NCBI RefSeq assembly: GCF_028714975.1
Contig: NZ_JAQTLH010000002.1
Span: 124,001 to 188,000, forward strand
DNA length: 64,000 bases
Origin: Sulfurimonas sp.
Lineage (GTDB): Bacteria; Campylobacterota; Campylobacteria; Campylobacterales; Sulfurimonadaceae
Reading direction: 5' to 3'
Shown: piece by piece, positions 21,606-45,759 of the stretch
Position numbering within the stretch: the first letter of the stretch is position 1
Layout: every line of letters starts with the position of its first letter
Made by a program: the position numbers and the translations under genes
The notes under the pieces: model-generated
The model's input: only the letters and a program-made list of their open reading frames with translations
Told to the model about the DNA's origin: nothing
Database searches by the model: none

Positions 21606-21616
21606 AGATTAATATC

Positions 21617-21648
21617 TTAACTTGCAGCCAAAATCGGTTGCAAGTTAA
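21617..21648. terminator. Bidirectional hairpin between adhesin and its secretion operon
   Basis: A 13-base-pair stem (one G-U pair): TTAACTTGCAGCC at 21617-21629 with GGTTGCAAGTTAA at 21636-21648, loop AAAATC. It lies in the 56-base gap between convergent genes and is followed by CTTCTTCT on the plus strand. Confidence 0.7.
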
Positions 21649-21661
21649 CTTCTTCTGTCTG

Positions 21662-22273: not shown

Positions 22274-22275
22274 AG

Positions 22276-23658
22276 TTACCTTTCGCTTAGTACATTTTCC
22301 CTTGCACGGAGTATCGGTTTTAGAACATAGTCCAACACTGTTTTTTTGCCGGTTATGATATCAACATCCGCCGTCATACCGACCATAATGTTAAGTTTTT
22401 TCTCTTCGCTGCCTAAGTAATTTTTATCAGTCTTTATACGAACAAGATAGTAATTTTGTCTGCTGACTTCATCATAAATCGTATCGGCGCTTATATGTGT
22501 AACTGTTCCATGTATTGAGCCGTATATGGCAAAGTCATAAGCAGAAAATTTTACAATGCCACGTTGCCCCGGAAATAAAAAAGCGATATCTGCAGGTTTG
22601 ATTTTTGCTTCGACAAGCAGGTTGTCTTGAGTTGGAACTACTTCGATAATATTCATCCCCGGTTTTACAACACCCCCTACCGTATTTACCAATAACTGTT
22701 TTATTGTTCCGTCTACGGGAGATCGGACAAATGTGCGTTTCACCTTGTCTTCTCTGGCTATATTGGCACTCTCGATTCGCGACATTTCAGCTTTTGCTTC
22801 GTTGAACTTCTCTTTGGCAATATTGCGGAATTTGAAATCAAGTTCCATAATATTGTTTTTTTGTTCCTCTATAATAGAAGTAAGACGAGGAATAGAGAGT
22901 TTCGTTGATTTCATTTGACCCTCAATGGCGCTTGCTTCTCTTTGAAGTTTTAAGTACTCTACTTCGGCTACGATACCCTTGTCAACTAGCGGTTTATTTA
23001 GCTGCAGCTCTTTTAAAATTAGTTCATAACTTTTATCAAGGTTAGCTAGTCTTGCCTGAGCTTCTTTAAGTTCATCTCTTTTTTGTTCTAAACGGCGCTC
23101 ATAAATGAGTATACTGTTTTCTAACTGCTCTTTATTGCTAAGATATAAAGACTCTTCATATTTAATAAGTTCCGGTGAACTTTTTCTAACTGTTTCACTA
23201 GCTTTAAAAGGGCTGCCTGTCGATTCGGCTAAAAGTCGAATAGTTTTTGCTTGAAGTTCGTTATAGCGGAGTTGACTCTCTATGAAATTACTTACAAAAC
23301 CCGTATCGTCAATTTTTATAAGAATATCGCCTTTTTTTACCGCTTCTCCGTCTTCAACAAGAATTTCACTAACAATCCCGCCTTCAAGATTTTGTATGAC
23401 TTGAACTTGATTGGAAGGAATCACCTTGCCTTGACCACGTGTAAGTGCGTCAATTTCGGCATTGTGTGCCCAGAAAATAAGCCAAATAATAAAAAAGGCA
23501 CTAATCCATAACATAATCTTAGTACCGAGTGAGCTGTTCATCAGCATTGCGGCACTCACGGAGTTCATATACTCTAAATCTTCACTGTTTTTTATACGAA
23601 GATTTTTAATATCTTTTTTTCTATAAGAGTACTCTTCAAATTTATCTTCAAGACCCAT
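22276..23658 (-). CDS. Type I secretion adaptor, HlyD/LapC family
   Basis: 460 residues: cytoplasmic N-terminus of about 50, one membrane helix near 50-68, a lipoyl half (VIQNLEGGIVSEILVEDGE, about 87-105), long coiled coil (about 165-305), the second lipoyl half (VKRTFVRSPVDGTIKQL) and a beta-barrel C-terminus ending in the VMVGMTADVDIITGKKTV stretch common to HlyD proteins. It joins the ABC transporter to TolC for export of the adhesin. The start overlaps the stop of the ABC gene by one base. Confidence 0.92.
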   Translation of the reverse strand: MGLEDKFEEYSYRKKDIKNLRIKNSEDLEYMNSVSAAMLMNSSLGTKIMLWISAFFIIWLIFWAHNAEIDALTRGQGKVIPSNQVQVIQNLEGGIVSEILVEDGEAVKKGDILIKIDDTGFVSNFIESQLRYNELQAKTIRLLAESTGSPFKASETVRKSSPELIKYEESLYLSNKEQLENSILIYERRLEQKRDELKEAQARLANLDKSYELILKELQLNKPLVDKGIVAEVEYLKLQREASAIEGQMKSTKLSIPRLTSIIEEQKNNIMELDFKFRNIAKEKFNEAKAEMSRIESANIAREDKVKRTFVRSPVDGTIKQLLVNTVGGVVKPGMNIIEVVPTQDNLLVEAKIKPADIAFLFPGQRGIVKFSAYDFAIYGSIHGTVTHISADTIYDEVSRQNYYLVRIKTDKNYLGSEEKKLNIMVGMTADVDIITGKKTVLDYVLKPILRARENVLSER

Positions 23659-25832
23659 TAATTACTCTTTCTCGGTGTTTGTAATTGTTTAACTACATCA
23701 TCATGCGCACCGTCTAAAATGACTTTGCCTCTGTCTAGTAAAATCAGTCTTTGCGTCAGTGCCAACAAGATATTTTTATGTGATATCAAAAGCATTGTAT
23801 GATCTTTTTTATAATCATTTAGAGCTCGGATGAAGTGACTTTCATGCGTGCTATCCATAGAGTTAGTAGGTTCATCAAGCAGAATAATCGGTGCTTGATG
23901 TATAAAAGCCCGTGCAATAGATATGGACTGTTTTTGTCCTCCCGAGAGTCCGTCGCCTCTTTCACCGATAGGCATGTCGTACCCCATCGGATGTATATCA
24001 ACAAAGTCATTTACTCCGCTTAATTTAGCTACACTTAAAATATCCTCATCGCTTGCACCCGGAGAGCGTAAGACGATATTCTCTTTTAGCGTCCCTTGAA
24101 ACAGTATGATATCCTGAGGCACATATGAGATATTTTGTCTCAAATCAGCCGGATCAATCTGTTTTATGTCAATACCGTCAATTAAGATAGAACCCTCCGT
24201 CGGTTCATAAAGACCGAGGACAAGTTTTTCGATAGTGGTTTTTCCTGAACCGTTGGTGCCTATGATGCCGACAGACTCTCCCGGATTGATAATAAAACTT
24301 ACATTGTCCAAGATTTTATTGTCAGTATTTGGATAGATAAAACTTACATGTCTAAACTCTATCTTGCCTTTAAAAGAGGGGCGCTGAACAAAATTTTTCG
24401 CCTCTTCGCGTTCAACTGCGAGTTTCATAATGTTGTTAATAGCATCATATGCCGTTTTTGTTTGTTGAAAATTTGCAATTAGTGCTGCAACTTGACCAAG
24501 AGGGGCTAGCATTCTTGAACCCAGCATAACGACTGCTATCAATCCGCCCATAGTTAGAGATTTTTCACCTATCGCATAAACTCCGCCGATAACAAGAGCT
24601 ACCGAGTTTAACTGAATTATAAAATTGACAAATGTTGAGATAGAGTTGGATAAAATTTTAGATCTTAGACCTTTTTGTGCAACATCGCCTGTAGCTTCTT
24701 CCCATTTCCACTGATACTGTCCGCTAATTCCTAAAGCCTTAATAGTCTCTAATGCGGTTAAAGATTCGATTAAAACAGAGTTCTTATGAGCGGATGCTTC
24801 ATAAGTGCTCTGAACGCTGTGTCTCATCGGTTTTTCAATAATTACGCTGTAGATAATAATAACCAACGCGCTCATTATAGGAATGGCTATAAGCCAACCG
24901 CCTATGATATATGTTATAAATAAAAAGATAATCGTAAAAGGCAAATCAATAATAGTTGCAATTGATGAGGAGGTAAAAAAACCTCTTATAGAGTCAAAAT
25001 CTTTTAAATTGCTAGCAAAAGAGCCGACAGAGCGTGGTTTTGAGGCTATTTTTAGATTAAGTACATGTTCATATATCATTGATGACATAATGACATCGCT
25101 TTTTTTGGCGGCATTTTCAAGAAAATAGGAGCGAAGAAATTTTAAAACTATATCAAATATATAGATGACGATAATACCCGTAGCAAATACCCATAGCGTA
25201 TCCGTTGCATTGTTGGGAACAACTCTGTCATATACATTTAAGGTAAAAATAGGGGTTGCCATAACAAAAAGATTTATTAAAAATGAAGCAACAACCACAT
25301 CTATATAGACGCCTGAAAAGTAGCTAAGCGTTCCCCAAAACCAGTGATGATTTTCGTGTTTTAATAGACGGTTGTGGGTATCTTTGTACTCATGATTGTG
25401 TTTAAGTAAAAATGCGAAATTAATATATTCATCTTCTAAAAATTCTGTTTTGACCCAATTTTCACCCTCATCGACTTCAGGGAGTATGATTTTTGCATAT
25501 TTTCTATCAGGACTTATTTCCGTTAAGATGCAAGCTTTTTGGCTCTCTTTATCGCCTTTTAAAACTAATATGACAGGTAAAAGCAGAGGAGATATATCTT
25601 TAAATGAGTAATTTACTAACTTAGAGCTAAATCCTGCACGCTGCGCCGCTCTGTGAAAAGCGGATTTTGAGTCTTTAGAGTCTAGTGAAAAAAGTTCAGG
25701 AGTAGTTCTTCCCGGAGGAACCGGCAGATCGGCAACTAATGCCTCTGCGCTGTATGGACGATTGTAGAGCTTGGTAAAAATTACCAAGCACTCCAATAAT
25801 GGATTCTCAACCTCGTTATTCAACACCGACAC
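23658..25832 (-). CDS. Type I secretion ABC transporter with C39-like domain, LapB type
   Basis: 724 residues in three parts. Residues 1-150 are a C39-like domain without the catalytic QxxxxDCG motif, so it should bind but not cut the substrate, as in HlyB and LapB. Six membrane helices fill about 165-455. The nucleotide-binding domain has Walker A GTNGSGKTT (525-533), signature LSGGQ (629-633) and Walker B ILLDEP (650-655). It powers export of the adhesin. It overlaps the TolC gene by 17 bases upstream. Confidence 0.93.
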   Translation of the reverse strand: MSVLNNEVENPLLECLVIFTKLYNRPYSAEALVADLPVPPGRTTPELFSLDSKDSKSAFHRAAQRAGFSSKLVNYSFKDISPLLLPVILVLKGDKESQKACILTEISPDRKYAKIILPEVDEGENWVKTEFLEDEYINFAFLLKHNHEYKDTHNRLLKHENHHWFWGTLSYFSGVYIDVVVASFLINLFVMATPIFTLNVYDRVVPNNATDTLWVFATGIIVIYIFDIVLKFLRSYFLENAAKKSDVIMSSMIYEHVLNLKIASKPRSVGSFASNLKDFDSIRGFFTSSSIATIIDLPFTIIFLFITYIIGGWLIAIPIMSALVIIIYSVIIEKPMRHSVQSTYEASAHKNSVLIESLTALETIKALGISGQYQWKWEEATGDVAQKGLRSKILSNSISTFVNFIIQLNSVALVIGGVYAIGEKSLTMGGLIAVVMLGSRMLAPLGQVAALIANFQQTKTAYDAINNIMKLAVEREEAKNFVQRPSFKGKIEFRHVSFIYPNTDNKILDNVSFIINPGESVGIIGTNGSGKTTIEKLVLGLYEPTEGSILIDGIDIKQIDPADLRQNISYVPQDIILFQGTLKENIVLRSPGASDEDILSVAKLSGVNDFVDIHPMGYDMPIGERGDGLSGGQKQSISIARAFIHQAPIILLDEPTNSMDSTHESHFIRALNDYKKDHTMLLISHKNILLALTQRLILLDRGKVILDGAHDDVVKQLQTPRKSN

Positions 25833-27126
25833 CCATCTCTTCTAATATTTTGCCGCTATAAGATAAAATCTGATAGTAAGCGATTAAGCGATCATATTCA
25901 GCCGTAGTTTTGCGATTTTTTGCACTATTGTACTCAAGTTCTATATTTAAAAGGTCAATGATGCTTCTTCTTCCAAGTTCATGCTCTTTTTGATAATCTG
26001 CTACCGTCTCGCCGCTTGATTTTATAGTATTGTCCAAATGAACCAACTGCTCTTTAGTAGATTCAAATGTTTGCCATGCGATTTCAGTATATGCCTGAAT
26101 ATAGCGTTTTGCATCTGCAAGTGTGCTGTTTTTGTTAAGTAGTCTGTGTTGGTTTGCTTGTTTGTTTGCAGAATCTGCAAAACCGTTAAATAGGTTATAT
26201 TTTACAACTAAAAGAGCGTTATACCCGGAGTCTTCCTCAAATAAGCTTGGATTTGGGTTAGTTATATCGGTAGAGACACCGTGTACATTTTTGTTCCAGT
26301 AAGATTCTGCTTTAATATCAACTCTCGGATAATAAGGCGCATCAGCACGTTTAAGAGCGGCAGTTGCAACTTGAATATCCGCTTGTGAAACATGTATTTT
26401 TGGGTTGTTTTGCATAGCAATTTTAACTAAAGTATCCAAATCATTAGCAGGAACATTGCCGATTTTCGGTTTTTCTAAATCTTTTGCAGTTATATTGCCA
26501 GGCAATATACGCTCAAAGCTAGATATCGCATTAACATAATTTTGTTCCGCCAAATATTGGATACTTAGAGCGTTCTCATAACGAGCAAGAGTCTGTTTAT
26601 AATCAGAACTGCGTCCGACTCCGGCTTTTACTTTCTCGTCTATCTGAGAGAGATATTTTTTATGTACTGCTACATTCTCTTTAGAGATTTGAAACAACTC
26701 ATAAGTTCTGAGTACCTCTATGTAGTATGTGGCAGTTGCCAAAGCCAACTCGTTTGCACTCTCTTTAACGGTATCGCTGGCAGATAAAATAAGCGCTTTT
26801 TGCTGCTTAACTCCATACTCTGTATCAAAACCGGCAAAGAGGTTTTGCGTTAATGTAGCAGAAGCGTCTTGTCGCGTTAAATTTTCGCGTTCTCTGCCGT
26901 TATTTATAGTTCTTGTTACTTCAGGACCTACCGAGTAAGAGAGATCTAGAGACGGTAAATAACCTGCCTTTGCACGATCTAGCAATTCTCTTTGTGTATT
27001 GCGATCCTCTTTTTTCATTTCAATCTGAGGGTGCGTTTGAACTGATTTCTGAACCGCGTCGGTAATTGACATTGCGCTTACAAGCATCGGTATTAAAACC
27101 ACTGATAATATCGTTAACTGTTTCAT
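25816..27126 (-). CDS. TolC-family outer-membrane protein of the adhesin secretion system, LapE type
   Basis: 436 residues with a signal peptide (about 1-18, LVSAM) and the two helical repeats of TolC, with the repeat-closing motif VKYNLFNGFADSANK near 305-320. LapA adhesins of the retention-module kind are thought to stay threaded through this channel. First gene of the secretion operon; the order TolC-ABC-HlyD-regulator is typical of LapA-like loci. It differs clearly from the other TolC gene at 10946. Confidence 0.9.
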   Translation of the reverse strand: MKQLTILSVVLIPMLVSAMSITDAVQKSVQTHPQIEMKKEDRNTQRELLDRAKAGYLPSLDLSYSVGPEVTRTINNGRERENLTRQDASATLTQNLFAGFDTEYGVKQQKALILSASDTVKESANELALATATYYIEVLRTYELFQISKENVAVHKKYLSQIDEKVKAGVGRSSDYKQTLARYENALSIQYLAEQNYVNAISSFERILPGNITAKDLEKPKIGNVPANDLDTLVKIAMQNNPKIHVSQADIQVATAALKRADAPYYPRVDIKAESYWNKNVHGVSTDITNPNPSLFEEDSGYNALLVVKYNLFNGFADSANKQANQHRLLNKNSTLADAKRYIQAYTEIAWQTFESTKEQLVHLDNTIKSSGETVADYQKEHELGRRSIIDLLNIELEYNSAKNRKTTAEYDRLIAYYQILSYSGKILEEMGVGVE

Positions 27127-32579: not shown

Positions 32580-33089
32580 ATGAGGGTTATTCTTTTAAGT
32601 GCGCTACTTTTTTTTCTATTTTTGGGGTGTAGTGCAATAGTAAAAGCAAACAATAGTCTTCCGCCTCCTTATGTAGATGTTGACGGATCTGCTCAGGTTA
32701 AAAAAAATACAAAAATAACATTATTGCCGTTGAATAATTATACCGATACATCCCAAGCCGGTATGAGAGCATCAAATATTATAGAAGGTTTACTGTTAAG
32801 CAAAGGATATATAATAAAGAGTCATATTTCAATCGATAAATATGATTTACAAAAAGCTATCGAATTGGCAAGGCAGGACGGTTCAGACTATCTAATGTAC
32901 GGCGGTGTTAGCGAGTGGAGATATAAGACGGGAATAGACGGAGAGGCTGCCGTTAGCATACAATGTGCGTTAGTTGATATAAAAACATCTTTAGTCGTAT
33001 GGAGCTCTATAGGTTCAAACAGCGGTTGGGCGAGTAGTTCTATTGGTGAAACGGCGCAAAATTTGATAAAATCAATGCTTTTTAATTAG
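32580..33089 (+). CDS. pelC: Pel polysaccharide export lipoprotein PelC
   Basis: 169 residues, close to the 172 of Pseudomonas PelC. A lipoprotein signal ends LFLGC with the lipidated Cys at residue 17. The mature part shows the PelC pattern: TLLPLNNYTD, a DYLMYG strand, and near the end VWSSIGSNSGW. PelC forms a periplasmic ring under the outer membrane that funnels the polymer. First gene of the pel operon, with AAAGGG as ribosome site. Nine bases separate it from pelD. Confidence 0.85.
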   Translation: MRVILLSALLFFLFLGCSAIVKANNSLPPPYVDVDGSAQVKKNTKITLLPLNNYTDTSQAGMRASNIIEGLLLSKGYIIKSHISIDKYDLQKAIELARQDGSDYLMYGGVSEWRYKTGIDGEAAVSIQCALVDIKTSLVVWSSIGSNSGWASSSIGETAQNLIKSMLFN

Positions 33090-33098
33090 TAAAAATAT

Positions 33099-34379
33099 AT
33101 GAAAATCGTTCATAAGCGAATTAAAGAAAAAACAAAATTAGCCGCAATAACTAAAAAATTGCACGATTACGCTTATTTTGAAACGATAGTCATAGTTTCT
33201 TTATATTTAGTCGTAGGATATATTATAGATTCCAACGATATCTGCATGACAGCCGGCAACATACCTTATATGTTGATTCTATTGGCTGTTATTACCCTGT
33301 TCCACGGTTTTGAAAGCGGTATGATTGCTACCGGCATTTTAGCTTCCGCAATGTGGTATTTTTACCCTGTATTTTTGTATGTTGATTTTTTAATCTCTTT
33401 GATGATGACATTAATATTTAGTGAATTCCACTATTATTGGACAAAACGCATAAGAGAAGCACAGACTAATTCACAATATTATGAGATAAAATTAAATGAA
33501 CTCTCAAAAGCATTTTATACGCTAAAAACATCTCATGATCAGTTAGAAAAAAATTATGTAATCAAGCCTATGAGTTTGCGGCATTCTATTAGAATTATAA
33601 AAGAATCAAATATCATTCAAGAAGATAAATATGAAAATTTTCTAAAGCTTTTAGAGACATCGTATAATGTCTCTATTGCAACAATAGTTTATAAACAAGA
33701 TATAGGCGATAACTTTAAAATTATCTCTAAAACCGTTGATACGATAGAAGATATCAATTTTAAGGATTTATTGATTATAGATGCGTTAGAAAAACGCAAA
33801 CCTGTCTACATAAGTGACGAAGCAACCAAAAAAAGTAAATATATTGCCGTAATACCGGCTCTTTATATGGAAGAAATTGTAGGCTTGCTGCTTATTGAAA
33901 AAATGCCTTTCATGTCTTTTAACAAGGAAAATTTGACATCGGTATCAATCCTGTTTGAATATTTTTCAAATGAGATGCGCAAGCAAAAAATATTGATAGA
34001 ACACACCGATTTAGGCGTTATAACCGATGATGAATTTAGATTTGAGTACTTTCGTTTATATGATTTGTATAAACATTATAGAATTGATTCTATATCGTTT
34101 GTTTTTAAAATAAAAGACCCTTTGCTTGTTGAGAGATTGTACACTACAACCCAAAAATTATTGCGTTCTCTTGATATTGTAACATTGGTTAAGCAAGAAA
34201 AATATCAGTATGTCGTTTTATTGTTTCCTTTTGCAGATAAAGCTTCTGCGTTTGGTTTTATGAATCGTCTTTTAAATAGACTCGGCGATGTTAAAGAAAA
34301 AGATTTTGAATATATGACATTTGATTTTTCAAAAATGAATTTATTGGAAAAATATTTAAATGTACGATATGTTGAATAA
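33099..34379 (+). CDS. pelD: PelD, cyclic-di-GMP receptor of Pel synthesis
   Basis: 426 residues (Pseudomonas PelD has 455). About four membrane helices between 27 and 110, a short coiled coil (about 120-152), a GAF-like domain (about 170-300) and a degenerate GGDEF domain to the end. The inhibitory-site motif RxxD is present as Arg356-Ser-Leu-Asp359, and Arg390/Arg394 lie about 35 residues on, matching the second arginine of the PelD ligand site. The GGDEF catalytic motif is absent, as in PelD. c-di-GMP binding here should switch on polymer synthesis. Confidence 0.83.
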   Translation: MKIVHKRIKEKTKLAAITKKLHDYAYFETIVIVSLYLVVGYIIDSNDICMTAGNIPYMLILLAVITLFHGFESGMIATGILASAMWYFYPVFLYVDFLISLMMTLIFSEFHYYWTKRIREAQTNSQYYEIKLNELSKAFYTLKTSHDQLEKNYVIKPMSLRHSIRIIKESNIIQEDKYENFLKLLETSYNVSIATIVYKQDIGDNFKIISKTVDTIEDINFKDLLIIDALEKRKPVYISDEATKKSKYIAVIPALYMEEIVGLLLIEKMPFMSFNKENLTSVSILFEYFSNEMRKQKILIEHTDLGVITDDEFRFEYFRLYDLYKHYRIDSISFVFKIKDPLLVERLYTTTQKLLRSLDIVTLVKQEKYQYVVLLFPFADKASAFGFMNRLLNRLGDVKEKDFEYMTFDFSKMNLLEKYLNVRYVE

Positions 34380-35310
34380 TAATTTACTGTTTTATGATGA
34401 ATATATCAAAATATTTTATATTTTTCATATAATTATTACTACTATCATCAGTCTTATTTCGGCTAGATATATGCAAAAAAGGTTTTTTGATTCTAAAAAA
34501 AGAGCTTTTATCTTTATGTTTCTTTTTAATATATCTTTACCTGTAATAGGATATTTTTTCTCTTATTGGATATCTTATTATTTAAAAAATGTTAAGTATG
34601 AGGATGTATTAGATAATGTACATGTTATAGATCTTGATGAGTTTGAAAACTATTTTATAAATGTAGAACGTGCTTTTGGAGAGAGTTCTATGTATGAGCT
34701 TATGCAAAATGACTATGCATCTACATCTTTAAAAATCAAAGCACTTGTTTCTATGTCGGATAATATTTCACAAAAAAATATAAATATTATAAAATATACG
34801 CTATCTAGTAATAATGATGAGGTTAGACTATTTAGTTTTGCAATCATAGATAAAATTGAAAGAGGAATTAACGGTAAGATACATCAAAATCTTGAAAAAT
34901 TTAAACAAGAGAGTGATGAAAAAAGAAAAGCATTGATAGCAAAAGAACTTGCAGCACTCTATTGGGAGATGATTTATTATGAACTTTCAGAGAGCTCTTT
35001 AAAAGATTATTATTTAAGTGAAGTCTTAAAATATATAAAATTTGCCGCTCTTAGCTATCCGTATGATTTGAAATTAAATCTGATGCTGGGAAGAGTTTAT
35101 ATGTTACAGAAAAATTATGACAGGGCGGCAACGGAGTTTTCCTATATATGTGAGATGAATCTAGAAGAAAATCAATTTGTTGGACCTTACCTGGCGGAGA
35201 TAAATTTTAATGCAGGCAATTACAGAACTGCAAAATCAATAATATCCGAATTAAACAGTTTGCAGTTAAATAGTACGCTATATCCGATTTTTGAACAGTG
35301 GAGAGCCTAG
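34360..35310 (+). CDS. pelE: PelE, inner-membrane Pel subunit with TPR-like helices
   Basis: 316 residues. Two membrane helices in the first 70 residues, then helical repeats that read as TPRs toward the end (LGRVYMLQKNYDRAATEF near 245). It occupies the pelE place between pelD and pelF, and has the PelE layout (two helices plus TPRs). It overlaps pelD by 20 bases; ATG 34369 is an alternative start. The identification rests on position and layout more than on direct sequence signatures. Confidence 0.75.
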   Translation: MYDMLNNNLLFYDEYIKIFYIFHIIITTIISLISARYMQKRFFDSKKRAFIFMFLFNISLPVIGYFFSYWISYYLKNVKYEDVLDNVHVIDLDEFENYFINVERAFGESSMYELMQNDYASTSLKIKALVSMSDNISQKNINIIKYTLSSNNDEVRLFSFAIIDKIERGINGKIHQNLEKFKQESDEKRKALIAKELAALYWEMIYYELSESSLKDYYLSEVLKYIKFAALSYPYDLKLNLMLGRVYMLQKNYDRAATEFSYICEMNLEENQFVGPYLAEINFNAGNYRTAKSIISELNSLQLNSTLYPIFEQWRA

Positions 35311-36821
35311 TGGGCAGATATATAAGACAAAGTAAAGATGTCGATGTAATGCTTTTGGCAGAGGGAACTTATCCATATATCAGAGGCGGCGTTTCATCTT
35401 GGATAGCTCAACTTCTAGCCGGATTGCCGGATATAAGATTCGGAATTTGCTTTGTAGGTTCTCAAGAGAGTGAATACGGTGAAATGAGATATGAACTCCC
35501 TGATAATTTGGTTCATTTAGAAGTTCATTATATGTTTGGAGATGATAATCCGCCGGTTAAAAAAATAAAAGCAGATAAAAAAAGTTTTGAAGCTCTTAGA
35601 GAGCTTCACAAATCATTTTCACAAAAAAATGCCGATATTCCGGATATGATGAAAGATATAAATTTTTATATGAGAGATGTGACTTTTGAACATTTTTTAT
35701 ATTCAGATCTCTCTTGGGAGTTCTTAAATGAAAGTTATATGAAAAATTGCCCTGACATCCCTTTTATAGACTATTTTTGGACGTTGAGAAATATACACAG
35801 ACCGATTTGGATACTTGCTAAAATTGTTCAGAACTTTCCGTCTATAAAACTTTTTCACTCCCCCTCAACAGGGTATGCCGGTTTTTTAGGAGCATTAGGC
35901 TCATATACTAAAAATGTTCCGTATATTTTGACTGAGCACGGAATTTATACAAGAGAGAGAAAAATAGATATGTTGACTGCCGACTGGGTCAGTTTTAAGA
36001 AATCACCTCTTTTAAAACAGCCCGAAGAGTTTAACTATATTAAAAAAATGTGGGTAAATTTCTTTGAAAAAATAGGAGAGTTTTCATATAAAAGAGCAAA
36101 TACGATTTTGTCCTTATATCCAGGAGCACAAAAGATTCAAATTGCATTCGGTGCGGATGAATCCAAAACAAAAGTTATTCCAAACGGGGTTGATGTTGAC
36201 GGATTAAATGCAACTATGGTTAAAAGACAAAATCCTCCTAAGCCGATTATTACGCTTATAGGTCGTGTAGTTTCTATTAAAGATATTAAAACTTTTATTC
36301 GTGCTATTAGAATAACTCTAAATGAAATTCCCGATGTTGAAGCTTGGGTAGTCGGTCCGACGGATGAAGATCCGGAATATTTTGCCGAGTGTGAATATAT
36401 GGTCGAATCTTTAGGTTTAAAAAACAATATGAAGTTTTTAGGATTTCAAAATATTAAAAATATTCTTCCGCAATCTGCGCTTCAAACGTTAACATCCATA
36501 AGCGAGGGTATGCCGCTTGTCATACTAGAGGGTTATGCTGCCGGAGTTCCGTGTGTTGCGACTGACGTCGGTAGTTGTAGGGATTTAATATACGGCGGTT
36601 TGGATGATGAAGATATAGCACTCGGTGCTGCCGGTGCTATAACCAATATTGCAAACCCGTCCGAATTGGCAAAACAGTATATCCATTTTTTATCAGACTA
36701 TGATGCTTGGAAGAGGGCTCAGGAAGTTGCTTTGTTAAGAGTAGAAAAATATTACAGACAAGAGATGTTTTTAAAACAATATAATGATATATATTTAAAA
36801 GCTATGGACGGTAAATTGTAA
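35310..36821 (+). CDS. pelF: PelF, GT4-family glycosyltransferase of Pel synthesis
   Basis: 503 residues. Polymerises the Pel chain from UDP-sugar in the cytoplasm. The N-terminus shows AEGTYPYIRGGVSSW, very characteristic of PelF; the donor-binding half has IGRVVSIKDIKTFI and the E-x7-E element in SEGMPLVILEGY. GTG 35310 is preferred because GGAG lies six bases upstream and it overlaps the pelE stop (TAGTG); GTG 35298 would add four residues. It ends one base into pelG. Confidence 0.93.
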   Translation: MGRYIRQSKDVDVMLLAEGTYPYIRGGVSSWIAQLLAGLPDIRFGICFVGSQESEYGEMRYELPDNLVHLEVHYMFGDDNPPVKKIKADKKSFEALRELHKSFSQKNADIPDMMKDINFYMRDVTFEHFLYSDLSWEFLNESYMKNCPDIPFIDYFWTLRNIHRPIWILAKIVQNFPSIKLFHSPSTGYAGFLGALGSYTKNVPYILTEHGIYTRERKIDMLTADWVSFKKSPLLKQPEEFNYIKKMWVNFFEKIGEFSYKRANTILSLYPGAQKIQIAFGADESKTKVIPNGVDVDGLNATMVKRQNPPKPIITLIGRVVSIKDIKTFIRAIRITLNEIPDVEAWVVGPTDEDPEYFAECEYMVESLGLKNNMKFLGFQNIKNILPQSALQTLTSISEGMPLVILEGYAAGVPCVATDVGSCRDLIYGGLDDEDIALGAAGAITNIANPSELAKQYIHFLSDYDAWKRAQEVALLRVEKYYRQEMFLKQYNDIYLKAMDGKL

Positions 36822-38194
36822 TGGCCGGAATAGGTTTTGAGCTTCGCAGAATTTTAAAAAAAGATAGATTGTTATCTCTTGCTAAAGTTTATAGTTACTC
36901 TGCAGTTCTTAGTTCAGGACCTTGGGTTATATCTATCGTAGCTATTATTTTAGTCGGATTTGTAAATATTTCAACTATGGGCGCGATGAGTCAAGCCGCT
37001 AAATTTCAAATAGTTATAACTTATGCTATAGCTTTAGCTTCCAGTCTTGTAGTTACGGGGGTATTGCAGCTCCCTTTTACCAGATATGTGGCTGATTTGA
37101 TATTTGAGAAGAGAGAAGATGAAGTTCTTCCGTCATATTTCGGTGCAATTTTTCTCTCATGGTTAATCGGTCTGCCATTTGTTATTCCTTTGGTTTTTTA
37201 TATATTTGATACACAAAATCTTCTGTTTTTAATTGGAGTAATATCAATATTTTTAATTTTATGCGGAGTTTGGATATCTAGTATATTAGCTGCCAGTTTA
37301 AAATATTATATCGGTGTAGTATGGGCATATTTTGCTTCTTATGCTTTTATTGTTTTGTTCTCATATCTTTTTGGTGATAGTATAGAAGCTTTGATGTTTA
37401 TATTTTTTATAGGAAATTCAATACTATTCGTAATCTTGATGACGCTTATTATCAAATCATACAATTCGTCAATATTTATGAAGATAGATTTCTTTTTTGC
37501 CCCAAATTTTTACTGGTCTTTAGGTATCGCGGGACTTGCTTATAATCTAGGTGCATGGGTAGATAAATTTATATTTTGGTATCATCCTTTAACAGGAAAT
37601 GCAGTTATTGGAAAACTAAATGCATCGGTTGTCTACGATATACCGATATTTTTAGCCTATCTATCTATACTTCCCGGTATGGCAATTTTCTTTTATCGTT
37701 TAGAAGCCGATTTCGCAGAGAAGTACGAATTATATTATGATTCCGTAAGAAACGGCGGAACATTGGATACCATTAGAAGATATAGAAATGATATGGTTGA
37801 TGTGATTCGCCATGCAATACGTGAAATTATTATGATACAGGGTGTTTTAAATATTTTGCTGTTTTTGACGGCTCCGTCTATATTTAAAGTATTAAATATT
37901 CCACAGTTATATTTGGGATTGTTATATATTTTAACAATCGGAGCAATGCTTCAGGTTAGTTTTATGTCAGTCTTAGCGATACTTTATTATCTTGATAGAA
38001 AATTGGTGGCCATGTGGCTTTGTATAGCCTTTTTTGTTTCAAACGGAGTTTTGACTTATATATCTATCGATATGGGGCCTGCTATGTTTGGGTACGGTTA
38101 TGCTTCGTCTTTATTGTTGGTTTTTACTGCCAGTGTTATAGTTATTAGAAATGAGATGAATAGGTTGGATTATGAAACATTTATGCTGCAGTAA
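36821..38194 (+). CDS. pelG: PelG, Wzx-like inner-membrane transporter of Pel
   Basis: 457 residues with about twelve membrane helices, beginning MAGIGFELRRIL, a stretch typical of PelG. PelG belongs to the MOP/PST superfamily and is thought to move the polymer across the inner membrane with PelD, PelE and PelF. The start overlaps the pelF stop by one base, and the end overlaps pelA by 23 bases. Confidence 0.92.
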   Translation: MAGIGFELRRILKKDRLLSLAKVYSYSAVLSSGPWVISIVAIILVGFVNISTMGAMSQAAKFQIVITYAIALASSLVVTGVLQLPFTRYVADLIFEKREDEVLPSYFGAIFLSWLIGLPFVIPLVFYIFDTQNLLFLIGVISIFLILCGVWISSILAASLKYYIGVVWAYFASYAFIVLFSYLFGDSIEALMFIFFIGNSILFVILMTLIIKSYNSSIFMKIDFFFAPNFYWSLGIAGLAYNLGAWVDKFIFWYHPLTGNAVIGKLNASVVYDIPIFLAYLSILPGMAIFFYRLEADFAEKYELYYDSVRNGGTLDTIRRYRNDMVDVIRHAIREIIMIQGVLNILLFLTAPSIFKVLNIPQLYLGLLYILTIGAMLQVSFMSVLAILYYLDRKLVAMWLCIAFFVSNGVLTYISIDMGPAMFGYGYASSLLLVFTASVIVIRNEMNRLDYETFMLQ

Positions 38195-40922
38195 ATTTTT
38201 ATTTATTTTATTTGTTATTGTTACTTCTTTAAGCGGATCACTTAAGGACAAAAGCGAAATTGTTTTTTATGCAGATTATATATCATATCCAACGATAGGG
38301 ATTCACGACTACATAATAGTTCAGCCTCAAAATATAGATACAAATACGCACGGTTTTTCTATTTACAAAGATAAAATGTATGCTTATGTAAGCATATTGG
38401 AAGTAAATAAAGATACTAAAGAGTATAAAAAAATAGATCCAAAATGGATTATAGGAGAAAATAGCAGCTGGAATAGCGCGGTTTTAGATATTAGAAATAA
38501 AGATTATCAAAAATTTTTATTTGAAGAAATAATAGAAATAAAAATAAAAGAGGGGCATATAAACTTTTTTTTCGATACGCTTGACTCTTATCAAATGTAT
38601 GCAAAAACTACTGAGCAATCAAAAGAGTATGAAGATGCTTTGGTTGAGTTTATAAGCACTTTTCATAAAAAATTTCCGCATTCCAAGCTTGTTATAAATC
38701 GCGGATTTGAGATTATCGAGAGGGTTCATAAATTTGTTGAAGCGGTTTTATTTGAATCTTATCATTATGGTATAAATTCTAAGGATTTAACATATAAAAA
38801 AGTCTCTTTGGAAGATAAAAAGTGGTTAGATTCTTATATCGATAAAATCAAATCTTACGGTTTGGATTTAATAGCGGTAGATTATTTGCCTCAAAATGAA
38901 TCTGACAAGATAGATGAGTCTATAAACATTATAAAATCAAGAGGAATGATTCCGTATGTATCAATTCCTAAATTGGATATTTACGGAAAATCTTCTAAAA
39001 ATGCTCTAAAGAGAGAGATTTTGTTTCTTATAGATGAGGGTAAAAAAGATAGAAGTGTTTTGGGATCGCATATGTACGGTGCACTTCCTTTGGAGTATCT
39101 GGGGTATATACAAGAACTATATGAGATAAACCAAGGATTGCCGAAGATTGAAAATATGGGACATTATGCCGGTGTAGTAGTATGGCTGGAGCAGCCGTAT
39201 AAAGATCCAAAAAGTTTGACAAAATGGGTAACCAAGCTTCATTCGCTAGGAATAAAGGTTGTGTTTATCGATAATTTCGGTACTTTTATAAAGAGTACGG
39301 CTTTGGACTCTTTGGGTATTGAAACCATAGATGCAGAAGAGAGTATCTCGGATAAAAAAACTATAATATTTAAAGATGATATGATTGGTTATGAAGTACA
39401 GCCGCCTCTGTCTATAGGTGATAGATATTTAAAACCAAGAGATTCAAAACCACTGATTATTTATGAAGATGAACATAAAAAACAATCGGTTCATGCGGCG
39501 ATAACCCCGTGGGGCGGCTATGCTTTAGATGAAGTTGCTATAATAGAGATCAATAAAGAAAATCTTTGGGTTATTAACCCTTTTGAATTTTTTCGACAAG
39601 CTTTGAGATTAAAACCTTTGGCAGTTCCCGATACGACTACGCAGAATGCAAACCGTTTATTGTTTTCGCATATAGACGGCGATGGAATTATGAATAGAGC
39701 AGAGTGGAATCCTGAACTGTTTTCAGGTGATATAATTTTAGAAAATATTTTAAAAGTGTATAAAATTCCACATACCGTATCTGTAATAGGTGCCGAGATA
39801 AATCCGGAGGGACTTTATCCCGATATTTCGCAAAAGATGATAAATATAGCAAAGCGGATTTATAGTTTGGATAATGTCGAAGGAGCTACACATACATATA
39901 CGCATCCGTTTTCTTGGGGTAAAATAGTAGACGGAAATCTTGATGAAGAGTATAGACTGAAAGTGAAAAATTATAAATTTTCATTGGAGAGAGAGTTTAA
40001 AGTATCCCTAGATGATATAAGCACAAAGCTGCAACCGCCAAATAAACCGCGTGCGAATATTGTTTTTTGGAGCGGTTCGTGCGACCCTAGAGAGGATGTT
40101 TTAAAATATATATATAAAAATAGGTTTTTAAATATAAACGGCGGCTATACAACGATAACAAATACATCTCCATGGCTTTCAAATGTAGCGCCGATCGGTT
40201 TAAAAAGAGGAGATTATTATCAAATTTATACAGGCGCTCAAAATGAAAATGTATATACTAATAACTGGCTTGAATCTTTTTGGGGATTTAAAAAAGTCGT
40301 ACAGACATTTAAGTTAACCGATACTCCAAAAAGGCTTAAACCGATAGATATCTATTATCATCTATATTCCGGTTCAAAAAGAGCTTCTTTAAATGCTCTA
40401 AAGTATGTTTTTGATTGGGCATTGGAGCAGGATGTTTTTCCTATATTTACATCTGAGTATATTTATAACGCGATGGATTATTATGTCGTATCCATAGCAA
40501 ATGAGTCGGATGAATGGCTTGTTGAGGGAACTAAATCATTAAAAACTCTTCGTTTTGAAAAACCTGATTTGAGTGTTGATATAAAAAATTCTAAAGGGGT
40601 TGTCGGATTTAAAACCATCCAAAACAGAACATATATACACCTAGATGAAAGTCAAAAACAACTTTTAACTTTAAAAGAAAATGCGGTAAATAAAAAAGCT
40701 TATCTCATAGATGCGAATGCTAAAGTAACCAACTACACCACAAGCGATAAAGAACAGATATTTTCGTTTAGCGGTCACACAGATTTAAAGCTTAGTTTTT
40801 ATCTTCCAAGCAACTGTACACTCAAATCATCTTCGCAAGCTCTAACAAAAAAGGATAAAAATAAGATATCTTTAGAGTATAAAAATATAAATAAAGTAAA
40901 TATAAATGTCACATGTCAATGA
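38172..40922 (+). CDS. pelA: PelA, Pel glycoside hydrolase and deacetylase
   Basis: 916 residues (Pseudomonas PelA 948). Signal peptide about 1-21. The hydrolase domain (about 30-270, GH166 type) has Glu195 in VLFES at the place of the catalytic glutamate. The deacetylase domain starts near residue 495 with SHIDGDG, whose aspartates bind metal, and continues with THTYTHPF near 572, whose histidines complete the site. A beta-rich end follows. The periplasmic enzyme trims and deacetylates the GalNAc-rich polymer. Start overlaps pelG. Confidence 0.92.
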   Translation: MKHLCCSKFLFILFVIVTSLSGSLKDKSEIVFYADYISYPTIGIHDYIIVQPQNIDTNTHGFSIYKDKMYAYVSILEVNKDTKEYKKIDPKWIIGENSSWNSAVLDIRNKDYQKFLFEEIIEIKIKEGHINFFFDTLDSYQMYAKTTEQSKEYEDALVEFISTFHKKFPHSKLVINRGFEIIERVHKFVEAVLFESYHYGINSKDLTYKKVSLEDKKWLDSYIDKIKSYGLDLIAVDYLPQNESDKIDESINIIKSRGMIPYVSIPKLDIYGKSSKNALKREILFLIDEGKKDRSVLGSHMYGALPLEYLGYIQELYEINQGLPKIENMGHYAGVVVWLEQPYKDPKSLTKWVTKLHSLGIKVVFIDNFGTFIKSTALDSLGIETIDAEESISDKKTIIFKDDMIGYEVQPPLSIGDRYLKPRDSKPLIIYEDEHKKQSVHAAITPWGGYALDEVAIIEINKENLWVINPFEFFRQALRLKPLAVPDTTTQNANRLLFSHIDGDGIMNRAEWNPELFSGDIILENILKVYKIPHTVSVIGAEINPEGLYPDISQKMINIAKRIYSLDNVEGATHTYTHPFSWGKIVDGNLDEEYRLKVKNYKFSLEREFKVSLDDISTKLQPPNKPRANIVFWSGSCDPREDVLKYIYKNRFLNINGGYTTITNTSPWLSNVAPIGLKRGDYYQIYTGAQNENVYTNNWLESFWGFKKVVQTFKLTDTPKRLKPIDIYYHLYSGSKRASLNALKYVFDWALEQDVFPIFTSEYIYNAMDYYVVSIANESDEWLVEGTKSLKTLRFEKPDLSVDIKNSKGVVGFKTIQNRTYIHLDESQKQLLTLKENAVNKKAYLIDANAKVTNYTTSDKEQIFSFSGHTDLKLSFYLPSNCTLKSSSQALTKKDKNKISLEYKNINKVNINVTCQ

Positions 40923-41937
40923 AGATAGACTTCAAGTAGCAACATATAAAGAGATAGCTATCGTATTTGCTACATTTGTTGTTATTTTATTTTTTTTATA
41001 TCCAAAAGAGTTGATAAAAGATCAAATATTACGAGAAGACTCCAACTATGATTTGAGCATGCTCTATCTAAAAAATATGTTAAAGCATGACCCTAAAAAT
41101 GAGTCATTGATGTTGACATTGGCTAAGGTGGGTTTACAATCCGGTAAAAAGGATATCTCGTTGAGATTGGTTGAGTTATTGCACTCAAGCAGTGATGAAA
41201 AAATAAAAAAAGAGGCATATACATTGGGTTATACTCTGCATAAAGAAAATTATTATCTAGTTGATACCCAAGAACAAAAAGAACAAATTATTAAAAAACT
41301 AAAAAGTATATTTTTAAATATAGTCGAAGACAATCTTTATGATGTACAAGATTTGGATATATGGTACGAAGAGGCCATTTTTTTGAACGACTATTTAAGT
41401 GCACATAATCTATTGTTAAAAAAATTAAAACAAAACGATAATGATATACAATCACTAGAGCGTATTTATTACCTTTTAAATAAAATGGGTAAAGACTCAT
41501 TGCCGTATCTGCAACAATTGCAAAAAAAAGACAAAGCCAATGCGTTAAAATGGATAATGGCCGAATACTATCTTCTGATGGATAAGCAAAAGTATACTGA
41601 GGCAGAAATACTTTTGAAAAAACACTCTTTAAATTCAGACTCTTTTGTAAAAGAGCTGGCACATTTTTACAACTATACTAAACAATACGGCAAGGCTTCC
41701 CAAGCTTATATAGAGATTTATAATAAATCAAAAGATAAAGAATATCTTATAAAGGCTATAGAGTCTCTACAAGCTGGAAATTATTTAAAAGAATCGGTAG
41801 AATTGGCTCAAAAATATGAAAACTTTTATATAAACGATAAAGAATTTAGAATTTTTTTGTTAAAAGTTTATTTGGCAGGCGGAGATGTAAAGCTGGCGTC
41901 AAAATTGGCTAAAAAAATAATGGACTTAGAAAAATGA
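40906..41937 (+). CDS. PelB-like inner part: membrane anchor plus TPRs
   Basis: 343 residues: one membrane helix near 15-32 (followed by YPKELI), then helical repeats of TPR type, for example near 45-70, 195-230 and 255-275. In Pseudomonas one protein, PelB (1193 residues), carries an N-terminal membrane helix, a long TPR array and a C-terminal barrel; this gene matches its first part. It overlaps pelA by 17 bases and the next gene by four. No signal cleavage site is evident, so it probably stays in the inner membrane and reaches into the periplasm. Confidence 0.75.
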   Translation: MSHVNEDRLQVATYKEIAIVFATFVVILFFLYPKELIKDQILREDSNYDLSMLYLKNMLKHDPKNESLMLTLAKVGLQSGKKDISLRLVELLHSSSDEKIKKEAYTLGYTLHKENYYLVDTQEQKEQIIKKLKSIFLNIVEDNLYDVQDLDIWYEEAIFLNDYLSAHNLLLKKLKQNDNDIQSLERIYYLLNKMGKDSLPYLQQLQKKDKANALKWIMAEYYLLMDKQKYTEAEILLKKHSLNSDSFVKELAHFYNYTKQYGKASQAYIEIYNKSKDKEYLIKAIESLQAGNYLKESVELAQKYENFYINDKEFRIFLLKVYLAGGDVKLASKLAKKIMDLEK

Positions 41938-44735
41938 AAATATATATTTTAATATTTTTAAGTCTTATTTTTTTATTTGCCGATGATATTGCCAAAAGTG
42001 CTAAAGTTGATGTAAACAACTCATTTGTTGATAAAAAGGATGAAGAATTAAGATTGCTTTTGCAGGTATTTTTATATGACAATGACATTGAAAATGCCTA
42101 TAAAGCCGCTAAACTAGGTTATAAAAGAGATCCGAACTCTATATATTGGAATCAGAAAATGGCCGAAACATCTAAATGGAGCGGGCGCAATAATGAAGCT
42201 ATAAAATATATGTTTTTTATATATGAGAAAACTAAAGATCAAGAGGTTAAACAAAATCTTATTAATTACGGGCTGCAAACTTATCAATATGAGAGTATTG
42301 AAGATTTGGTAGTCTCTAATGCTTTGAGTAAACCGACAAAAGAGAATATAGACTTAATGGAATTTGTCTATTCTGAGATAGGATTTCCTGAAAAATCGGC
42401 AGCTATTTTAGAAGCAGAGTATAACAAAGAGAGTTCAAAGATTGACTATTTGTCGCGTGCGCTTCGGATATATACGGATATCGGTGATTTAACAAATGCT
42501 TCAAGAATCGTTAATATTTTAGAAAAAAATAAGCTCTATACAAAAGAGACTGCTATACAAATAACTTACTTTTACTATACGCAAAAAAATATGGATTTAG
42601 CGTATGAAAAACTGCTGATAGCTAAAAAATTTATTGATGATGAAGATATAAAGTATTTGCAGTTGTTGAGTGATCTTGGATGGTATATGCAAGATTATTC
42701 AAATGGTGCAGAAGTTATCAAAAAACTGATGTCATTAGACAATGCCCGCATAGTTGATTATGAGAGGGTTATTCAGTTTTACCAAGGTAAGGATTTAGAT
42801 TTTGTTTTAAAAGCATGTAAAGAAGCTTATAAAAAACATCAGGCATCCTATCTTTTTTATTACTATGCAAACAATGCGGTAAAATTAAATCGCTATGATG
42901 ATTTAAAAGATTTTATGACAGAGATAGACAATGATGACACGTATATAAAAAATGAAGCACTTTACTGGGTGATAAAAGCTCAAGTTTTTAAATATTATAA
43001 AGATTTAGAGATGTCTAAAAGTGCTTTAAAAGTAGCGCAAAGTTTAGATTTGGGTAATTTAAATATGAAATTGACGCTTTTTTGGTTTTATATAGAAAAT
43101 CATTTTGACGAAGAGTTAAAAACTGTTTTAAAAGATCTTGAAGAGACTCAAAATATAAGTGATGAGTATTATATGCCTATGGCATCTGCATATTTTTATT
43201 TGCAAGATATCGACAGAGCGTCATACTATTTACAACAGCTTACAGATACAAATCATTACAGTGTAAATAGTTTGGATTTTAAGTTTTTAAAAGCATATAT
43301 ATATAAAGCTCAAAACGATGAAGACTCTTTTAATAGTAGCATAAAAACTATTTTAAAAGAGTTGGAGGAAAACGGCAGAGGAGATAGCTCGCTATTAAAA
43401 AACGATACATACTTAAATAGATATCTTCGTGCTTCTTTATATACATTGAGTGCAGATGAATTTCAAAAAAAACTTTTTGAATCAAAAGAGTATCTATTAA
43501 AGAAAAATTATGATGAAATTTCTTACTCTTTTGCAATAGATAACGGTGCATACGAAGATAGTGGTTTGATATATCAAAATATTCAAAATAAAGAGATATG
43601 GCATAGATTTAACAATGCCGTGATTTTCCAAAATCGCAGTGAAATTGAAGATATGCTAGAACTTTATCTAGCAAGTTTACCAGTTGATGATGCATCTTCA
43701 GAAGCAAAAAAAGATGGTCAAATAGCGCTCTCTCAGACATTAGCTTATGATAGTTTAGATAAAAACAGTTATTCAGAAAATAGCTATATTCAACATCTCT
43801 CTTTATCAAAAGATTATGCGAATAAGTTTGATGCAAAATTCTCGCATTATAAAAGAGACGAGCTTTTGCAAAAATCTTTACAACTGAATAACAAAATTTA
43901 TATATTAAACGGTTGGTATCTCTTTAATGAAGTTGATTATGTAAAAAACTCAATCTTAGATGAAAATCTTTTTAACCAAATCCCAAAAGATACGATAAAA
44001 GCCGGTATGGAACTAAGAAAGATTTATGACAAAGTTTATTTTGATTTCGGTTTGGCTTATCATGAATCTATGAAAAATTATTTATCATATAAAATAGATG
44101 CTTCTTATCAGATGAGTAAAAATTTAAAAACAGATATCTCTTATGAAAAAAATAAAGAAGCCAAAGAGAGTATCGGACTGCTGCTTGGCGGTAAAAAAAC
44201 TTCATACGATTTTAAAATTAATTGGAATGTACTAAACTCTACTTCGTTAAATATTCTATACGAATTAAACGATTATAGCTCACAAGATGATGTGGAATTA
44301 ACAAAAGGCAGTTATGCTCGTATATCGGCTAGTAAAGCATATAGACTTGGATATCCTGATATATCTGTTGAAGCCTTTTATGATTACGGCGCTTACTCGG
44401 CAGGCAGTAACTCCTTAAATGGCACAATAGATATGTTGTATAAAAAACCCACTTTAGCCGTGCCGAAAGATTTTTATAACATAGGAGCAGTTTTTAATTA
44501 CGGTATGGTAAATAGTAACTCATATACAAGGGTTTGGAGACCTTTCTTTTCATTTAGTCCTTACTATAACGGTCAATCAAACTCATTTAATTTTGGATTT
44601 GACGGGGGGATGGGCGGAAAAATATTTAATCAAGATCATCTAGTTTTTGGTTTAAATTACTCAGAATCCGTAAATGGAGTTTCCGCTAAGGCTATGGAAT
44701 TTTATATAAAGTATCATTTTTTATATGCTAAATAA
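41934..44735 (+). CDS. pelB: PelB-like outer part: TPRs plus outer-membrane barrel
   Basis: 933 residues. A signal peptide-like start (about 1-17, LFADD), then TPR-like helical repeats to about 600 (WNQKMAETSKWSGRNNEA near 57 is a clear one), then a C-terminal third of alternating beta strands that should form the export barrel. PelB makes the outer-membrane pore for Pel, with TPRs that guide the deacetylase. With the previous gene the total is 1276 residues. It ends 16 bases from the convergent galE stop. Confidence 0.83.
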   Translation: MKIYILIFLSLIFLFADDIAKSAKVDVNNSFVDKKDEELRLLLQVFLYDNDIENAYKAAKLGYKRDPNSIYWNQKMAETSKWSGRNNEAIKYMFFIYEKTKDQEVKQNLINYGLQTYQYESIEDLVVSNALSKPTKENIDLMEFVYSEIGFPEKSAAILEAEYNKESSKIDYLSRALRIYTDIGDLTNASRIVNILEKNKLYTKETAIQITYFYYTQKNMDLAYEKLLIAKKFIDDEDIKYLQLLSDLGWYMQDYSNGAEVIKKLMSLDNARIVDYERVIQFYQGKDLDFVLKACKEAYKKHQASYLFYYYANNAVKLNRYDDLKDFMTEIDNDDTYIKNEALYWVIKAQVFKYYKDLEMSKSALKVAQSLDLGNLNMKLTLFWFYIENHFDEELKTVLKDLEETQNISDEYYMPMASAYFYLQDIDRASYYLQQLTDTNHYSVNSLDFKFLKAYIYKAQNDEDSFNSSIKTILKELEENGRGDSSLLKNDTYLNRYLRASLYTLSADEFQKKLFESKEYLLKKNYDEISYSFAIDNGAYEDSGLIYQNIQNKEIWHRFNNAVIFQNRSEIEDMLELYLASLPVDDASSEAKKDGQIALSQTLAYDSLDKNSYSENSYIQHLSLSKDYANKFDAKFSHYKRDELLQKSLQLNNKIYILNGWYLFNEVDYVKNSILDENLFNQIPKDTIKAGMELRKIYDKVYFDFGLAYHESMKNYLSYKIDASYQMSKNLKTDISYEKNKEAKESIGLLLGGKKTSYDFKINWNVLNSTSLNILYELNDYSSQDDVELTKGSYARISASKAYRLGYPDISVEAFYDYGAYSAGSNSLNGTIDMLYKKPTLAVPKDFYNIGAVFNYGMVNSNSYTRVWRPFFSFSPYYNGQSNSFNFGFDGGMGGKIFNQDHLVFGLNYSESVNGVSAKAMEFYIKYHFLYAK

Positions 44736-44751: not shown

Positions 44752-45759
44752 TTAGTTGTATCCGTTTGGATTTTTTGATTGCCAGCGCCAAGCGTCTTCA
44801 CACATTTCGTCAATTCCTTTAGCAGCGCTCCAATCTATAATCTTTTTTGCAAAACTAGCATCTGCAAAACATTTAGCAACATCACCGGATCTCCTCGGAG
44901 CAAATTTATAAGGAACTTTTTTTCCTGAAGCTTTTTCAAAAGCTTTTACCATATCTAAAACAGAGTAGCCGCAACCCGTACCTAGATTGACTACTAAAAT
45001 CTCTTTTATATCATCTAGCTTTTTTAAAGCTTTTACATGTCCTAGTGAGAGATCCACTACATGTATATAATCTCTAACGCCTGTTCCGTCGTGAGTGTCG
45101 TAATCATCACCGAAAACGCTCAAAAACTCTCTTTTTCCTATGGCGGTTTGAGATATAAAAGGCATAAGATTGTTTGGGATACCGCGCGGATCTTCTCCGA
45201 TTAATCCTGATTCATGCGCTCCGATAGGATTAAAATACCTAAGTATTGCTATTTTATAACTATTGTCGGATGCGAAAAGATCATGCAAAATCTCTTCTAT
45301 AAAAAGCTTGGTCTTACCGTAAGGATTGGTAGCGCTAAGTGGAAAATCCTCTTTTATAGGGGTTGTATGCGGAATTCCGTAAACGGTCGCTGATGAGCTA
45401 AATATAATTTTTTTACATCCAAACTCTTGCATAACCTGACATAATGCTATAGTTCCGTTTACATTGTTATCGTAGTAATCAAGCGGTTTTTGTATAGACT
45501 CGCCGACGGCTTTAAGACCTGCAAAATGAATGACTGCATCAATACTGTAGTTTTTGAAAACTTTTCGCAGATCCGACTTTTTTCTTATGTCGCCGTGGCA
45601 CAAGTTAATAGTGGCAGAAGTGATTTTTTCAACTCTTTTTATACTCTCTTCTGAAGAGTTGGAAAAATTATCAAAAACTACAACTTCATAACCGGCTTTT
45701 ATAAGTTCTACACATGTGTGTGAGCCGATATATCCTGCTCCGCCGGTTACCAAAATCAT
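44752..45759 (-). CDS. galE: UDP-glucose/UDP-N-acetylglucosamine 4-epimerase (GalE type)
   Basis: 335 residues of the short-chain dehydrogenase fold: GGAGYIG NAD motif at 6-12, SSSATVYG near 121-128, and the catalytic Tyr147-x3-Lys151. Interconverts UDP-glucose and UDP-galactose. The residue aligned with E. coli Tyr299 is Cys297 (KCFADAS; codon at 44869-44871), the same kind of residue as in human GALE and the bifunctional Campylobacter enzyme, which also take N-acetylated sugars. Convergent to pel; likely supplies UDP-GalNAc for it (inference). Own promoter region, AGGAAAG ribosome site. Confidence 0.92.
   Translation of the reverse strand: MILVTGGAGYIGSHTCVELIKAGYEVVVFDNFSNSSEESIKRVEKITSATINLCHGDIRKKSDLRKVFKNYSIDAVIHFAGLKAVGESIQKPLDYYDNNVNGTIALCQVMQEFGCKKIIFSSSATVYGIPHTTPIKEDFPLSATNPYGKTKLFIEEILHDLFASDNSYKIAILRYFNPIGAHESGLIGEDPRGIPNNLMPFISQTAIGKREFLSVFGDDYDTHDGTGVRDYIHVVDLSLGHVKALKKLDDIKEILVVNLGTGCGYSVLDMVKAFEKASGKKVPYKFAPRRSGDVAKCFADASFAKKIIDWSAAKGIDEMCEDAWRWQSKNPNGYN

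Follow-up and report, generated by a model that had tools for sequence, protein, structure and literature searches.

A Pel operon of a Sulfurimonas-like bacterium in which PelB is encoded as two proteins, with the break conserved among relatives

INTRODUCTION

Pel is a biofilm polysaccharide, a partially deacetylated alpha-1,4 GalNAc polymer. Its exporter in Pseudomonas aeruginosa, PelB (PaPelB), has an inner-membrane helix and binds PelA through TPRs 9-14 (PMC12022489), with residues 332-436 given as the PelA-binding stretch (PMC12141448). A published AF3 model kinks after TPR 8, and in the route proposed with it Pel follows TPRs 1-9 until it reaches PelA, which sits on TPRs 9-15 (PMC12022489). 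It has been proposed that the one PelB chain possibly bridges both membranes and guides Pel through the periplasm (PMC12141448, PMC12022489). A divided PelB has been mentioned as 'pelB fission', a mere phrase in the legend to Fig. 5iii of PMC7112194, where nothing is said of a breakpoint, a signal peptide, the topology, the spread or the polarity; the main text of that paper does not name Epsilonproteobacteria. Our literature searches for a split PelB in Campylobacterota or Aquificota gave nothing beyond PMC7112194, and no description of the breakpoint, a second signal peptide, the spread or a three-gene form was found in them.

RESULTS

A complete pel operon

The DNA analyzed here, called the window, is a stretch of 64,000 nucleotides on contig C2 of the 2.06-Mb genome of a Sulfurimonas-like bacterium of the sulfur-vent type. 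Its plus strand carries a pel operon at 32580-44735, with the gene order pelC-D-E-F-G-A-pelB-N-pelB-C and with neighboring genes that overlap or almost touch in the list of open reading frames (Table 1). All of the genes by which a gram-negative Pel operon is recognized, i.e. pelF and pelG together with pelD, pelA, pelB, pelC and pelE, were found. The matches of PelF, PelG, PelD and the PelB barrel lay above curated cut-offs and those of PelA, PelC and PelE were weaker or generic, the identities of the latter three being hardly in doubt considering the gene order and the conservation in relatives. According to the PelG scan and a PelF+PelG tree, the nearest pel relatives of the window are found in Sulfurimonas-type Campylobacterota. 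A promoter scan gave barely more matches than shuffled sequences did.

Convergent to the operon lies a galE-type NAD epimerase gene (44752-45759), and galE-like genes also adjoin pel in several relatives (L017, L019 and L020); an epimerase of this type could supply UDP-GalNAc and is an indirect pointer to Pel as the product. Also close to pel, at 17031-27126, the window encodes a 1524-residue cadherin/Big-repeat RTX adhesin and, beside it, a type I secretion set (TolC-like protein, ABC exporter and HlyD) with a LuxR-type regulator. Together with pel, this adhesin and secretion region looks like a biofilm region.

Table 1. Features of the pel operon, in coordinates of the window
Feature	Position	Strand	Basis
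pelC-like lipoprotein, first operon gene	32580..33089	+	Lipobox FLGC; LpoB/DUF4823-type matches; position; conserved in relatives
pelD, c-di-GMP receptor family	33099..34379	+	PF16963, E 2e-9
pelE-like membrane and TPR protein	34360..35310	+	Weak TPR matches; position; kept in relatives
pelF, glycosyltransferase	35298..36821	+	NF038011, E 3e-187
pelG, transporter	36821..38194	+	PF16933, E 5e-127
pelA, hydrolase/deacetylase	38172..40922	+	GH114-type match, E 7e-10; full length kept in relatives
pelB-N, inner-membrane half of PelB, 343 aa	40906..41937	+	ORF; AF2; TPR fold matches; profile; HMM
Membrane helix of PelB-N, residues 14-31, then YPK; predicted uncleaved anchor	40945..40998	+	AF2 helix 14-31
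ATGA start-stop overlap coupling pelB-N and pelB-C	41934..41937	+	Sequence; -4 or -1 spacing in most split loci
pelB-C, 933 aa, outer-membrane half of PelB with signal peptide, TPR array and barrel	41934..44735	+	ORF; Pfam; AF2; PDB match
Predicted signal peptide of PelB-C, residues 1-16, with a presumed cleavage site behind LFA	41934..41981	+	Sequence; like leaders in split PelB-C
Periplasmic TPR/alpha-rich scaffold of PelB-C, residues 34-628	42033..43817	+	AF2 helices; aligns to PaPelB 299-730
Part of PelB-C that aligns with PaPelB 332-436, the PelA-binding stretch	42174..42488	+	Alignment offset; PaPelB interval from PMC12141448
16-strand outer-membrane barrel, residues 630-931	43821..44726	+	PF24604 at 632-928; AF2 strands

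Anatomy of the two PelB chains

The pelB-N gene starts within the 3' end of pelA. The AF2 model of its product was all helical (pLDDT 89.7), with 18 helices predicted to form nine hairpins after the membrane helix, in which no cleavage-like site was seen by eye; the N-terminal inner-membrane helix of a PelB, predicted to be uncleaved, is found here on a separate chain of 343 residues. Foldseek matched the model to TPR superhelices (probability 1.00, E 4e-7) at low TM-scores of about 0.3, as one would expect on comparing whole superhelices of different curvature. Pfam gave a weak TPR_19 match, under its cut-off (E 1.7e-4), and a profile of PelB-N aligned with PaPelB (9h80_M) at residues 54-97 and 175-240, i.e. 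with N-terminal repeats, at E 8.5e-6.

PelB-C has an N-terminus reading MKIYILIFLSLIFLFA/DD, a plausible signal peptide. Its AF2 model (pLDDT 88.8) consisted of helices at residues 34-628 and of 16 strands at 630-931, and its sequence matched TPR_15 (E 6e-30) and the PelB barrel family PF24604 (E 4e-34, 118.9 bits compared to a cut-off of 31). The top match in the PDB was 9h80_M, the P. aeruginosa PelB of the PelBC complex (TMt 0.83, rmsd 3.3, 401 columns), with BcsC (9b8a) also ranking high, and the PelB-C profile aligned with PaPelB 299-730 and 808-1178 at E 6.6e-82. A C-terminal PelB barrel was thereby recognized through both PF24604 and 9h80_M, and a periplasmic TPR scaffold through TPR_15 and the predicted folds of both chains. 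The segment aligned with PaPelB 332-436 falls entirely inside PelB-C, where PelA binding is predicted from the alignment. These results bore out a preliminary description of the locus, with respect to both the coordinates and lengths of the two reading frames and the assignment of a helix with the first TPRs to the smaller gene and of its own signal peptide, TPRs and a barrel to the larger; a small chain lacking a TPR fold, or a large one lacking a barrel, had there been named as evidence to the contrary, and neither was seen in the models.

The pelB-N and pelB-C frames differ by -1. Helix, TPRs and barrel, expected in one polypeptide, were found in two genes having two starts and two leaders, and since all parts of PelB are present although in two chains, we class this as a split PelB, a variant of the known exporter. 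As PelB-C maps to PaPelB from residue 299 onwards and PelB-N to the N-terminal repeats, the break lies at about PaPelB residue 285-297, just ahead of the PelA-binding repeats. This is at most one or two repeats away from the kink after TPR 8 in the published AF3 model, and close to the boundary between TPRs 1-9 and the PelA-binding TPRs of the PMC12022489 model.

Spread of split and fused PelB

A PF24604 search over 397 genomes of the phylum gave 20 with a match, 19 of these above the cut-off. Loci were collected by a PelG-alignment scan of genome contigs (80 named loci) and by searches around Alloalcanivorax and Geobacteraceae; being drawn by PelG similarity to the window, the sample is biased towards near PelGs, is not an unbiased census, and holds no Aquificota. 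With duplicates removed, PelB was encoded by two genes at 43 loci, by three at two loci and by one at 42. A check in relatives had been proposed in the preliminary description, and with 45 split and 42 fused loci the arrangement is clearly not unique to this genome. Split forms comprised nearly all Campylobacterota, all six loci of Desulfobacterota/Myxococcota, two loci of Elusimicrobiota, five of gammaproteobacteria (Moraxellaceae, Alloalcanivorax and kin) and one betaproteobacterium, and fused forms almost all betaproteobacteria, the other gammaproteobacteria and three campylobacterotal loci (L016, L061 and L146). Most split loci showed ATGA or TAATG coupling, i.e. a 4- or 1-base overlap, the spacings found being -4, -1, 0, 2, 3, 4, 10 and 92. 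Split PelB-C proteins open with a hydrophobic leader, predicted to be a signal peptide, and a hydrophobic segment followed by [YFH]P was present in 44 of 45 split N halves and in 39 of 42 fused PelBs.

An HMM built from the split N halves alone scored 30-220 bits on 41 of the 42 fused chains and at most 20 bits on two of 47 split outer-membrane halves. Matching fused chains and hardly any outer-membrane halves, it does not reflect a general TPR reaction, and it confirmed the small chain as the N-part of PelB, as had been claimed; with this control we rejected the idea of an unrelated TPR protein lying ahead of PelB-C. When the split halves were concatenated and aligned with the fused chains, all junctions fell at one column, plus or minus one. 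In fused PelBs of Campylobacterota and gammaproteobacteria this seam is 3-8 residues long. In betaproteobacterial fused PelBs there is nearly always a long, variable, low-complexity linker exactly at the break, mostly of 34-136 residues, with one of 12 and one of about 350; the linker is internal, although in GC-rich genes the start codons are not certain. The chain can thus be either divided or flexibly joined at the seam, and this speaks against a single rigid superhelix being required.

Some loci departed from these patterns. At the two three-gene loci (L018:3094-7537 and L144:3075-7404), one gene encodes the anchor and TPRs, another encodes TPRs, and the third encodes the barrel together with a short YSIQL module; the second and third products each have their own leader. 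In L017, L019, L020, L024, L033, L035-L041, L043, L046 and L053, the PelB-C signal peptide is followed by an extra module of about 90 residues, which also precedes a Porin_O_P protein (L024:16547-18346). This module starts with C-[YTN]-[TS]-[VI]-Q, has conserved cysteines and is SPOR-like by eye, with a weak Pfam SPOR match in two of 15 members (best E 0.1) and no match in the PDB; PelB-C of the window is without it. Two pelA genes flank pelB in L017, L020, L024, L033, L035, L036, L041, L141 and L142, one of about 855 residues, with no GH114 match in the tested member L020, and the other of about 910 residues with GH114, the two perhaps representing separate deacetylase and hydrolase forms. 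In Azospirillum thermophilum (L030:1579-6301) two TPR genes were seen, the second (526 residues) with a weak PelB barrel match (E 1e-4), and this is possibly another, different split. A campylobacterotal pel locus (L069:7081-9066) encodes a 661-residue anchor and TPR protein without a barrel; a barrel gene may follow, as the contig ends soon after.

Direction of change

On the PelF+PelG tree, PelB must have switched between the split and the fused state no fewer than six times, and constraining all fused rows to one clade was rejected (AU p 0.000167). Split forms were basal on both sides of the tree under either a midpoint or a Fusobacterium root, the polarity resting on the midpoint or on a root close to the Fusobacterium and Azospirillum branches, which are long. 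The fused L016 and L061+L146 sat inside split clades, and three split groups (L104; L066/L074; L107/L149/L152) were nested among fused beta- and gammaproteobacteria, where there was perhaps some re-splitting at the same site or operon transfer. With fused forms polyphyletic and split forms basal on both sides, the two-chain PelB is probably the older, single-chain forms having arisen several times by fusion. In this respect the tree points away from the preliminary description, which had treated the single chain of Pseudomonas as the norm.

DISCUSSION

We consider it likely, with a probability of about 0.8, that the Pel system of the window is complete and of the gram-negative kind, with a PelB made up of two co-translated proteins that dock non-covalently, the two-chain form probably being the older one. 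It may fairly be concluded from the two separate chains that the inner and outer membranes are joined via protein contacts only. The working that we infer, including docking, stoichiometry, hand-over and Pel as the product, would be as follows. PelB-N would be anchored in the inner membrane by its uncleaved helix, would present its TPRs beside the PelDEFG synthase and would there receive Pel, and PelB-C, exported by its own signal peptide, would dock PelA with its TPRs, enter the PelC ring with them and provide the exit with its barrel. With the halves docked at the break, the TPRs of PelB-N would pass Pel on to PelA bound to PelB-C, and after deacetylation Pel would leave through the barrel. 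In most betaproteobacteria, fusion would have come with a linker, long and flexible, at the break. Between the N half and the C half, net charge declines in split chains (+3.2, +0.8 and -0.6 per 100 residues) as well as in fused ones, with kinship ignored in both cases; this correlative drop is in line with Pel turning cationic at PelA.

Other explanations of the two reading frames are less convincing. A sequencing or assembly frameshift in one genome has nothing but the adjacency of the frames in its favor, and we discarded it as having a negligible probability, since 45 non-redundant loci, isolates and single-contig genomes among them, are broken at this place, each with a leader on the second chain; the same 45 loci exclude chance. 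The leaders on split outer-membrane halves, together with a break conserved over several phyla, instead speak for an organized split, as had been argued in the preliminary description. Programmed -1 frameshifting, by which the frames would be joined to yield also a single-chain PelB, would agree with the -1 relation of the frames and with the overlap GAA AAA TGA / ATG, where a lysine tRNA could slip. The spacing varies in relatives, however, and the frame relation is therefore not kept, with the signal peptide opening the second chain being conserved instead, and we rejected this as highly improbable.

PelB-N could also be a separate, PelE-like inner-membrane TPR adaptor that acts with the synthase and never touches PelB-C, given that PelE likewise has membrane and TPR parts and that the long linkers of fused betaproteobacterial PelBs suggest rigid continuity to be unnecessary. 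Its homology with the N-part of fused PelBs, in the same order and with the same anchor, and the recurrence of fused forms, which speaks for functional coupling, make us regard such an adaptor as improbable. Somewhat less so, albeit still unlikely, is a fission of a single-chain PelB in this lineage, with the split form derived. That would conform to the term used in PMC7112194 and to the nested split groups of beta- and gammaproteobacteria, for which fission is as cheap as repeated fusion, but split forms are basal and dominant in Campylobacterota and relatives, Desulfobacterota and Elusimicrobiota, the fused campylobacterotal loci lie within split clades, and fission would have to recur at one fixed place with a signal peptide gained each time.

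If we return to the probably older two-chain PelB, it seems that no single chain has to run from one membrane to the other, since the two-gene form occurs in several phyla and is maybe the older design. We lean, with some reserve, towards the wider reading of an ancestral two-chain PelB forming a non-covalent, perhaps dynamic bridge, with repeated derived fusion as in Pseudomonas, and of covalent inter-membrane continuity as dispensable for Pel export. The split form marks a natural cut site between the repeats thought to take Pel from the synthase and those holding PelA, and its two separable proteins open tests of the hand-over, the docking and the permanence of the bridge. It also shows a natural end point for expression constructs of the N-terminal TPRs, for which we found no solved structure that resolves them.

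The split PelB is thus part of a machine already known and was touched upon in earlier work, being not new as a phenomenon, while its breadth, fixed breakpoint and polarity appear undescribed. In PaPelB (1193 residues; PDB 9h80 and 5wft), the inner-membrane helix is likewise followed by a TPR scaffold, an alpha-rich stalk and the barrel, and both halves of the split form are homologous to it, the difference being one chain there and two here. With the 'pelB fission' of aquatic thermophiles (PMC7112194) the split PelB of the window shares a split pelB, found there in a rearranged pel operon. BcsC and PgaA, the exporters of cellulose and PNAG, resemble PelB-C alone in having periplasmic TPRs followed by an outer-membrane barrel. 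To our knowledge, neither has an inner-membrane half. They need no additional lipoproteins (PMC12141448). In the alginate system, the TPR scaffold and the barrel are also separate proteins, AlgK and AlgE. Of these, AlgK is a lipoprotein, and the barrel is cut off from the TPRs, a division also seen in L018 and L144 with their three genes, and not within the TPRs as in the PelB of the window.
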